Positions 9,698 to 11,740 of a DNA stretch of 11,740 nucleotides are shown in pieces (positions within the stretch are counted from its first letter, which is position 1; the number at the start of each line of letters is the position of its first letter). The stretch covers positions 1-11,740 of the forward strand of contig CALGIH010000330.1 of NCBI GenBank assembly GCA_937916035.1, given 5' to 3'. The position numbers were made by a program, and so were the translations under genes. Source of the DNA: an uncultured Lacinutrix sp. GTDB lineage: Bacteria; Bacteroidota; Bacteroidia; Flavobacteriales; Flavobacteriaceae. The notes under the pieces were generated by a model. The model was not told the origin of the DNA and did no database searches. It worked only from the letters and a program-made list of their open reading frames with translations.

Positions 9698-11740
9698 ATG
9701 AAATACCATTTCAACGACATAGAAGCCAAGTGGCAAAAATATTGGGCAGAAAACAAAACGTTTAAAGCCGAAAACAAAAGCGACAAACCAAAGTATTATG
9801 TACTAGATATGTTCCCTTATCCAAGTGGAGCAGGCTTGCATGTTGGTCATCCACTAGGTTATATCGCGAGTGATATTTATGCACGATACAAACGTCATAA
9901 AGGCTTTAACGTATTGCATCCTCAAGGGTATGATAGTTTTGGATTACCTGCGGAACAATATGCCATTCAAACTGGGCAGCATCCAGCAATTACAACGGCT
10001 GAAAATATAAAAACATACAGACGTCAGTTAGATCAAATCGGTTTTTCATTCGATTGGTCTCGTGAAGTCAGAACCAGTGATCCTAGTTATTACAAATGGA
10101 CACAATGGATTTTTATTCAGCTATTTAATTCTTGGTATAACAATGACTCTGATAAAGCTGAAAATATTTCAGAATTAATAAAGCATTTTGAAGCTGTAGG
10201 AAATGCGAATTTCAATGCTGAATGTGATGATAATGTAGAAGCGTTTACTGCAGAAGATTGGAAAGGCTATTCTTCTAAAGAACAACAACAAATAATATTA
10301 AAATACAGATTAACATATCTAGCCGAAACCGAAGTAAATTGGTGTCCTGCTTTAGGAACCGTTTTGGCAAATGACGAAATTGTTAATGGTGTGTCTGAAC
10401 GTGGTAGTCATCCGGTTGTCAGAAAAAAAATGATGCAATGGAGTATGCGAATTTCAGCTTTTGCTGAACGCTTACTTCAAGGATTAGAAACCATCGATTG
10501 GCCAGAACCATTAAAAGAAATACAACGTAACTGGATTGGAAAATCTATTGGTGCTACCGTTTCTTTCAACCTCATTGCGAGCGAAACGAAGCAATCTGCC
10601 AATAATATAAACAAAAGTCACGCTGAGATTGTCGAAGCATCTCATAAAATAGATGTATTCACAACAAGACCAGATACTATTTTCGGTGTTTCATTTATGA
10701 CGCTTGCACCTGAACACCAATTAGTATCACAAATTACAACTGAAGCTCAAAAAGCTGAGGTTGAAGCTTACATTGAAGCAACAGCAAAGCGAAGCGAGCG
10801 TGATAGAATGGCAGATGTAAAAACCATTTCTGGTGCCTTTACAGGAGCCTATGCTGAGCATCCTTTAACTAAAGAACCAATTCCAATCTGGATTGGAGAT
10901 TACGTATTAGCTGGTTACGGAACAGGAGCAGTGATGTCTGTACCTTGTGGTGACCAACGTGATTATTATTTTGCAAAACACTTTAATATCGCAATTCCTA
11001 ATATTTTTGAAGGTGTTGATATTTCTGAAGAAGCCTTTGCTGATAAAGACAACACAGTTATTGCGAACAGTGATTTCTTAAATGGACTTATTTATAAGAA
11101 AGCTGTAAAAACTGCGATTTACGAATTAGAAAAACTAGGTCAAGGCGAAGGAAAAACCAATTATAGATTGCGTGATGCTGTGTTTAGCAGGCAACGATAT
11201 TGGGGCGAACCGTTTCCAGTGTATTATGTAAACGGCATGCCACAGATGATTGATGCTGAACATTTACCTATTACCTTACCAGAAGTAGAAAAATATTTAC
11301 CAACCGAAACTGGCGAGCCACCTTTAGGGAATGCAACGGTTTGGGCTTGGGATTCAATTAATAACAAAGTAGTCTCTAACGACCTTTGTCATGCTGAGCC
11401 TGTCGAAGCATCTCATAATGGAACTTACCCTCTAGAACTAAACACAATGCCTGGTTGGGCTGGAAGCTCACAGTACTTTAACCGCTACATGGATCCTCAC
11501 AATGACAAAGAAATCTTCTCACAAGAGGCGATTAACTATTGGCAACAAGTAGATTTATATATTGGTGGAAGCGAACATGCAACAGGACATTTATTGTACT
11601 CTCGTTTCTGGCAAAAATTTATGTTCGATTTAGGCTTAGTGCCTCACGATGAGTTTGCAAAAAAGCTGATTAACCAAGGGATGATACTTGGGACTAGTGC
11701 TTTTGTTTACAAGTTAACTTTGATGTGGTCAAATACAGCA
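9698..11740 (+). CDS. leuS: Leucyl-tRNA synthetase, 3' end outside window
   Basis: This class I synthetase charges tRNA-Leu and edits mischarged products. The frame is open for 681 codons to the window edge. Visible parts are [18 protein letters not shown] (38-55) with the HIGH-type signature HVGH (48-51), a linker with [14 protein letters not shown], the WIGKS entry to the CP1 editing domain, the editing motif TTRPDTIFG (322-330), [77 protein letters not shown] and [17 protein letters not shown]. The KMSKS loop and anticodon-binding domain lie beyond the edge. The ATG at 9698 gives the family start [16 protein letters not shown]. Two stretches do not fit the family: residues about 292-316 and 564-573. 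They are translations of short repeat-like DNA elements inserted in frame, listed separately. No frameshift or stop results, so the enzyme is presumably functional. Confidence 0.97.
10572..10598 (+). repeat. Repeat-like element A inside leuS (ATTGCGAGCG...CGAAGCAAT type)
   Basis: ATTGC (10574-10578) and GCAAT (10591-10595) are inverted around GAGCGAAACGAA, forming an imperfect palindrome. From memory, the sequence resembles the short dispersed TCATTGCGAGCGAAGCGAAGCAATCT-type repeat found in several bacterial genomes (quoted loosely, not checked). It is translated as LIASETKQS (292-300), a peptide not expected in LeuRS, between [13 protein letters not shown] and the editing motif TTRPDTIFG. 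Confidence 0.7.
10617..10647 (+). repeat. Repeat-like element B inside leuS, copy 1 of a 31-nt direct repeat
   Basis: GTCACGCTGAGATTGTCGAA followed by GCATCTCATAA matches the copy at 11388-11418 at 28 of 31 positions, same orientation. It is 18 bp downstream of element A and is translated as [10 protein letters not shown] (307-316). It ends just before the editing-domain strand [11 protein letters not shown]. The terminal inverted arms are ACGCT/AGCAT, imperfect by one base. Confidence 0.75.
11388..11418 (+). repeat. Repeat-like element C inside leuS, copy 2 of the 31-nt direct repeat
   Basis: GTCATGCTGAGCCTGTCGAA followed by GCATCTCATAA has inverted arms ATGCT (11391-11395) and AGCAT (11407-11411). 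It differs from element B at three positions. It is read in the same frame, as [11 protein letters not shown] (564-574), in a loop between VVSNDL and the conserved [15 protein letters not shown]. Most bacterial LeuRS proteins have a shorter, unrelated link here. Confidence 0.75.

Follow-up and report, generated by a model that had tools for sequence, protein, structure and literature searches.

REPs are short repeats that are widespread in bacteria. The GTAG-tagged half has a proposed transposase; for the CGTC half, which includes Neisseria dRS3 and Rickettsia RPE-4 and RPE-6 (CGTC-4 and CGTC-1, respectively), one survey reports that none was found, that CGTC-REPs "apparently lack a dedicated transposase", that they are mostly HH dimers, and that no tyrosine transposase gene is flanked by CGTC repeats in CGTC-positive species (Di Nocera, De Gregorio, and Rocco, 2013; PMC3733652). 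In this work we analyzed a stretch of 11,740 nucleotides (the window) from an uncultured Lacinutrix sp., one contig of a MAG (G000) of 1.71 Mb and 62.8% completeness, in which a LeuRS gene carries units of a repeat resembling the CGTC-REPs. The likeness lies in the tag (YGTC or CCTC, with TGTC and CCTC as accepted variants), in dispersed and partly intragenic copies, in the presence of the family in Bacteroidetes, and in the AT at the stem start of unit A and of the site 2 copy of unit B. Where that survey gives an 8-9 bp stem and a CCA tail for CGTC-REPs, a conserved GAG...GA core lies within a short outer stem in the window units, and the tail is TCT. The survey detected no mobilizer gene linked to the repeats, whereas here GIY-YIG genes are bracketed by such repeats.

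RPE-4 and RPE-6 are, like the window units, short palindromic repeats that lie within genes and are translated, but they belong to another phylum and have other stems, and the likeness seen here is one of in-frame translation. Unlike the RPEs, the flavobacterial insertions concentrate at two sites of one gene over many genera and belong to several unrelated families. REPtrons (RAYT plus GTAG REPs) resemble the GIY-YIG elements described below in that inverted hairpin repeats enclose a tiny gene and many repeat-only copies exist in the genome; they differ in their Y1 transposase and GTAG tag, in place of which we find a GIY-YIG nuclease and a YGTC tag. Homing endonuclease insertions such as inteins resemble the DUF559 inserts, since a nuclease domain (of predicted activity for DUF559) recurs in-frame at a single position of the essential LeuRS gene, with decayed copies, but the DUF559 inserts have adjoining palindromes, and no splicing domain was found in the four that were scanned. 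Among the matches listed in a search of the open-licence PMC literature (titles, beginnings of abstracts, and term counts), we found no account of a link between GIY-YIG and palindromic repeats, of DUF559 in this role, or of the in-frame LeuRS insertions; an earlier description elsewhere is possible.

Repeat units in the LeuRS reading frame of the window

The window ends within the LeuRS gene (Table 1), whose product matches TIGR00396 above the family cut-off and contains PF13603 (LeuRS editing domain, Pfam) at residues 277-474. A preliminary description of this DNA had recognized two adjacent repeat units, 18 bp apart, at site 1, which our analysis confirms, and had overlooked the second in-frame copy of unit B at site 2. 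It had put the insert at about 25 residues; the actual excess of the window loop is 19 residues, since the commonest length elsewhere is 10, found in 46 out of 81 loops (80 named LeuRS plus the window) of which 28 have at least 13 residues. A scan of the window with Rfam gave no match at gathering scores. At the other end of the window, two adjacent related ORFs (1056-1895 and 1906-2712; 72% alike over 280 nt) are, judging by motif, presumably polyphosphate-kinase-2-like.

Table 1. Positions of the LeuRS gene, its site 1 loop, and the repeat units in the window
Feature	Position	Strand	Remarks
LeuRS (leucine--tRNA ligase) ORF	9698..11740	+	681 codons, open at contig end; TIGR00396 leuS_bact, E 5.3e-209; PF13603
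LeuRS site 1	10568..10654	+	29-residue loop, residues 291-319, upstream of VFTTRPDT; recurrent insertion site
Repeat unit A	10570..10598	+	Site 1; CCTC-ATTGCGAGCGAAACGAAGCAAT-CTG, i.e. tag CCTC + ATTGC...GCAAT + CTG
Spacer A-B	10599..10616	+	18 nt, in-frame, translated; partly common to L225 (G240)
Repeat unit B	10617..10647	+	Site 1; GTCACGCTGAGATTGTCGAAGCATCTCATAA = GTCA + CGCTGAGATTGTCGAAGC core + ATCTCAT
Second copy of unit B	11388..11418	+	In-frame at LeuRS site 2, directly before ELNTMPGWA; 90% identical to first B

A CGTC-type tag is present in two of the three window units, as CCTC in A (10570-10573) and TGTC in the site 2 copy of B; the first B has AGTC, which is off consensus, and GTCA lies directly 5' of 32 out of 82 related copies. 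The GTAG tag, the CGTC-REP hairpin (8-9 bp stem, 4-5 nt loop), and the 3-nt tail CCA are all absent from the window units, which end in TCT; the CCA tail is found in the flanks of four alpha-proteobacterial GIY-YIG genes (L471, L473, L475, and L481). The units had been called palindrome-like, and this holds for the family more than for the window: A and both copies of B fold as single strands no better than shuffled sequences (z of -0.15, -0.25, and -0.14), while among related copies outside LeuRS all three outer base pairs are paired in 65 out of 82, over many different stems, against 1.3 expected. Among the B core copies alone the outer stem is paired in 15 out of 17, and the flank repeats of the own-genome GIY-YIG gene L428 and of Shinella fold stably (z of -4.75 and -4.74). 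Since the copies covary while the window units fold poorly, the predicted hairpin characterizes the family as a whole and is weak in A and B.

The preliminary description had also likened both units to dispersed intergenic repeats, and both recur elsewhere in the MAG. Allowing 2 mismatches, the B core has 10 matches there, against one for the reversed control; eight of the 10 are credible in context, with L007 and L009 looking like chance; five credible copies lie outside any ORF of at least 80 codons, two in LeuRS, and one in-frame in a chorismate-binding enzyme. Unit A has two copies, both intragenic and in-frame, in LeuRS and in an IcmF-like mutase, so that the translated units of this MAG comprise three in LeuRS, one in the chorismate-binding enzyme, and one in the IcmF-like gene; A also occurs in the LeuRS of other genera (e.g., L225, L253, L255, L259, and L261). 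The view that a coding-compatible mobile repeat sits in an essential flavobacterial enzyme and is still translated gains support from these copies and from the loops of relatives. The Rickettsia precedent cited for it is apt as regards translated intragenic palindromes, and too narrow in its taxon, as PMC3733652 reports REPs within genes, including those of tRNA synthetases.

A structural check agrees with a loop. In an AlphaFold2 model of a 307-residue LeuRS segment (37 sequences; mean pLDDT 72.4, pTM 0.64), pLDDT falls below 50 at model residues 91-107 (approximately LeuRS 297-313), between predicted strands at 74-87 and 111-116, as expected for a flexible loop between two strands, and the nearest solved LeuRS structures (1h3n and 2v0c) have a gap where the window insert sits. 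The captured units were probably retained because they lie in a disordered beta-hairpin turn, which would tolerate extra residues. Judged from sequence, the window segment almost certainly consists of two units of a dispersed CGTC-REP-like repeat captured in-frame in LeuRS.

LeuRS loops in related genomes

From 299 Flavobacteriaceae genomes drawn we obtained a LeuRS match in 293; 231 site 1 loops were read (228 by script and three by eye) and 62 were taken as 10 residues from a 420-nt match to the 140-residue query. The loop has 12 residues or fewer in 185 and is longer in 108, which comprise 36 that match a repeat library, 21 with a DUF559 nuclease domain, and 51 others. The family and named sets overlap in some genomes and are otherwise kept separate; when they are pooled, 158 out of 308 loops have 10 residues. 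The only same-genus relative (L293 in G206) has a 10-residue loop, and a close match to the A-spacer-B segment of the window was seen in one other genome, G240 (L225), which belongs to a different genus. Most relatives examined lack the segment and have other dispersed repeats, other loops, or no excess there. Many of the long site 1 loops translate repeats, which vary by genus and include CCTGAGCGCAGTCGAAGGG-type, CTGAACTTGTTTCAG-type, CTCTCC...GGAGAG-type, ATTGCGAG...GAAGCAAT-type, and other units. With different dispersed repeats in different genera, the site 1 and site 2 segments of relatives are, on these alignments, not ordinary shared protein; nor is the window segment ordinary family-wide protein, and its units recur elsewhere in its genome.

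The library holds 29 strings, 26 from the flanks of GIY-YIG genes and three from a palindrome listing; it was assembled after the loops had been inspected, and its members occur elsewhere in the genomes. Over the 308 pooled loops, matches were found in 36 out of 56 loops of 18-49 residues (34 via GIY-YIG-flank strings), 11 out of 56 of 13-17 residues, 6 out of 19 of more than 130 residues, none in the single loop of 70 residues, and 2 out of 176 of 12 residues or fewer, while 0.87% of 1500 random LeuRS windows matched. With a cut-off of 24, the loop of the window reaches 36 with one of the GIY-YIG-flank strings. When 228 LeuRS were scanned over their length, 23 had a strict match at site 1, 14 had one at site 2, and a single sequence had one at another place, close to the N-terminus of its open frame.

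The repeat cores are also dispersed. The core YGAGYGNAGTCGARR, counted by pattern and not sorted by location, has 8-92 copies in each of 10 out of 10 genomes (92 in G007, 68 in G005, and 55 in G001); the exact core is not in the LeuRS of all ten, and L018 and L035 have their insert at site 2. Copy number in the MAG of the window is lower, with eight credible copies of B and two of A. For the core GCTGAAACAAGTTCAGCATGAC, the two genomes that carry it as an insert have 36 and 45 copies at up to 3 mismatches, and the palindrome CTCTCCNNNGGAGAGGG gave 31 and 29 matches, many of which are both strands of one copy and some of which are the LeuRS copies. The reversed control was zero in all three cases. 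These counts bear on the possibility that the loop arose by ordinary rapid protein evolution and resembles repeat DNA by chance. In its favor, hairpin turns commonly take up insertions, and 51 out of 108 long family loops match no library repeat. Against it, the external library matches 36 out of 56 loops in the 18-49 residue class and 0.87% of random windows, and the cores are dispersed through these genomes while their reversed patterns gave no match; we give this possibility an almost negligible probability.

Taken together, the comparisons identify LeuRS sites 1 and 2 as recurrent insertion points in Flavobacteriaceae and also in Mucilaginibacter. Insertions can be nested: L020 (Allomuricauda abyssi) and L024 (Muricauda sp. 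NBRC 101325) have one repeat pair in common, the middle of which is replaced in L024 by a CCTGCC...GGCAGG palindrome, with one added unit, and in L203 a unit lies inside the loop of another and is followed by further units. On a FastTree tree of 228 LeuRS without the loop, a minimum of 32 changes is needed for 36 repeat-bearing tips and of 17 for 19 DUF559 tips; this scatter indicates repeated gain, loss, or transfer, as the tree cannot separate gain from loss. Related species show the two sites in short, inserted, and nested states, a naturally occurring series of repeated in-frame insertions of mobile DNA into an essential enzyme that is useful for studying how proteins gain loops.

Other sources of loop residues were also seen. 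By eye, some site 1 loops, those of L016, L048, L049, L057, L059, L081, and L014, look like short tandem DNA repeats, and the LeuRS of a Hymenobacter (L090) has a 70-residue site 1 loop of repeated S/A-G-P/S-A-E units. A third region, from QGMI to KMSKS, varies from 75 to 167 residues among 201 family LeuRS, and window positions 11700-11740 end there. It was considered as a further repeat site and left aside, since its long variable inserts gave no strict repeat match.

Small GIY-YIG genes between inverted repeats

A PF01541 search of 10 genomes gave matches in all of them, 68 in total, and 30 were examined as loci, which we sorted, after the flanks had been seen, into 18 repeat-type, seven tRNA-type, and five large ones. 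From their length, we take the large proteins to be UvrC-like or exonuclease-like. Inverted similarity was scored between the 150-nt flanks of each gene, against a background of 713 other ORFs with 99% at 26 and a maximum of 40. A score of at least 26 was reached by 12 out of 18 repeat-type genes (up to 56, in seven of 10 genomes) versus 1.4% of the 713 other genes; the own-genome genes L417 (26) and L428 (56) are among the genes with inverted repeat ends, and the six that fall below include the own-genome L440. Two of the seven tRNA-type genes (L433 and L441) score 26. Only two of the five large genes could be scored (23 and 15), and they are poor controls, as the upstream flank lies inside the gene. 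A scan for hairpins with exact 6-bp stems was weak, with both sides positive in 2 out of 18 GIY-YIG genes versus 3 out of 707 background genes, probably because mismatched cores lie within the stems, and inverted-similarity scores were used instead. The stems of window units A and B are unlike those in the own-genome GIY-YIG flanks.

The arrangement extends to plasmids. A tblastn search with the own-genome GIY-YIG protein gave 33 plasmid records, 24 of them from Rhizobium, Sphingobium, Sinorhizobium, or Shinella, and we scored 13 loci, hand-chosen to limit near-duplicates. Strong inverted ends were found in eight of the 13, all alpha-proteobacterial; they score 36-151, whereas shuffled sequences reached at most 23-29: Shinella WSC3-e (151), Azospirillum lipoferum (84), Rhizobium CIAT894 (68, the best score coming from outside the REP pair, which is also present), Neorhizobium (63), Novosphingobium aromaticivorans (62), Sphingobium and Shinella PSBB067 (56 each), and S. 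meliloti (36). The CGTC tag is present in seven of the eight, and S. meliloti has the CCTC variant. The other five have no clear inverted ends, namely Planktothrix (28, shuffle maximum 31), Spirosoma (26, maximum 26), R. tumorigenes (15), Photobacterium (16), and Sinorhizobium C101 (16, unreliable because the ORF end is misplaced). In two of the plasmid records the GIY-YIG genes score 58 and 151, and the other genes, 41 and 46 in number, reach at most 21 and 23.

At the sequence level, the association of the small GIY-YIG gene with inverted repeats is thus established. Probably, a very small mobile element exists that has a GIY-YIG nuclease of about 100 residues as its sole gene and such repeats as inverted termini, and the dispersed repeats are its non-autonomous ends. 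That the nuclease moves the repeats is suggested by this association, and we lean towards it. The nuclease would nick or cut a hairpin end or a tag-like target, and a copy of the repeat would be placed at the cut; copies that break a reading frame would be lost, and those in-frame in loops would persist and be translated. As a whole, in-frame capture of CGTC-REP-like repeats in LeuRS with a GIY-YIG element as their source is the likely explanation.

Insertion of a GIY-YIG gene between pre-existing paired repeats would give the same picture. The main competing account holds that the repeats are older and moved by something else, and that they flank the gene because it homes into REP dimers, between the two units. 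The GIY-YIG fold is known from homing nucleases, and the other small GIY-YIG genes, at tRNA genes and with direct repeats on both sides in six of seven cases, suggest that related nucleases may home. HH dimers also predominate among CGTC-REPs (PMC3733652). This account leaves the mover of the repeats unnamed, and a RAYT finds no match in nine of 20 genomes, including the repeat-rich G007, G005, and G001 (92, 68, and 55 copies); we regard it as possible and rather unlikely. A RAYT (Y1 tyrosine transposase) as mover, as proposed for GTAG REPs, could draw on the presence of PF01797 in 11 out of 20 genomes. There is, however, no PF01797 match in G000 (62.8% complete), G206, G217, G001, G005, G007, G009, G010, and G012, so we rejected it as a general mover, and PMC3733652 reports no CGTC-flanked tyrosine transposase gene in CGTC-positive species; this makes a RAYT very improbable. 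To return to the GIY-YIG nuclease as the favored mover, CGTC-type REPs that bracket a nuclease gene in two phyla make the question of what moves CGTC-REPs directly testable.

The second kind of small GIY-YIG gene, with ORFs of 80-94 residues, was seen at tRNA genes in L423, L433, L441, L426, L438, and L443. Several of the direct repeats beside the tRNA-type genes are clearly tRNA fragments (direct-repeat scores 32-261), and L433 and L441 are tandem copies. The arrangement looks as if these genes home into tRNA genes.

DUF559 inserts at LeuRS site 1 and elsewhere

DUF559 domains were found at site 1 in 21 out of 293 family LeuRS, 19 by length and alignment and two by eye (L311 and L354). PF04480 was matched in 10 of the 21 (four by scanning and seven by family search, one being common to both), with E values of 1e-16 to 1e-36 for the four scanned long inserts; the same four of the 21 gave no match to protein-splicing families, and the LeuRS protein apparently retains the added domain. 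DUF559 beside palindromes was also found in a RecG-like gene (two genomes), a MetH-like gene, the IcmF of two Mucilaginibacter, and standing alone. The RecG-like and MetH-like hosts are presumed identifications from sequence, for which Pfam support is partial or sub-threshold. In L457 (G005) and L460 (G138) the domain lies in-frame at the identical position of the RecG-like helicase; in IcmF, the repeat of the own genome and the DUF559 domain of Mucilaginibacter occupy different positions. Of 22 DUF559 flanks scored, only eight attain the 99.9% level set by 3000 random blocks, including only one of the seven scored in LeuRS. The LeuRS copies L295, L300, and L348 are decayed, with little left of the conserved E-x-D-G..H stretch. 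Purely vertical inheritance of the inserts is not favored, with 17 changes for 19 tips and a correlation of 0.55 between insert identity and host identity.

These data identify the putative DUF559 nuclease with adjacent C/G-rich palindromes as a parallel element inserted at the same LeuRS site. We give about even odds to a wider proposal, namely that GIY-YIG genes with inverted CGTC-type REP ends are the autonomous form of an unrecognized class of mobile elements in Bacteroidota and alpha-Proteobacteria and thus the missing mobilizer of CGTC-REPs, that DUF559 with C/G-rich palindromes is a second class of the same sort, and that both land in permissive loops of essential enzymes, chiefly the two LeuRS loops, where they would add new peptide segments.

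One further locus, L469 (G138:C1:236312-236512), has a partial DUF559 match in a 717-residue ORF whose host part contains ...VVHNC, which we take to be an intein-like motif; from this locus, DUF559 may also serve as a homing nuclease of inteins.
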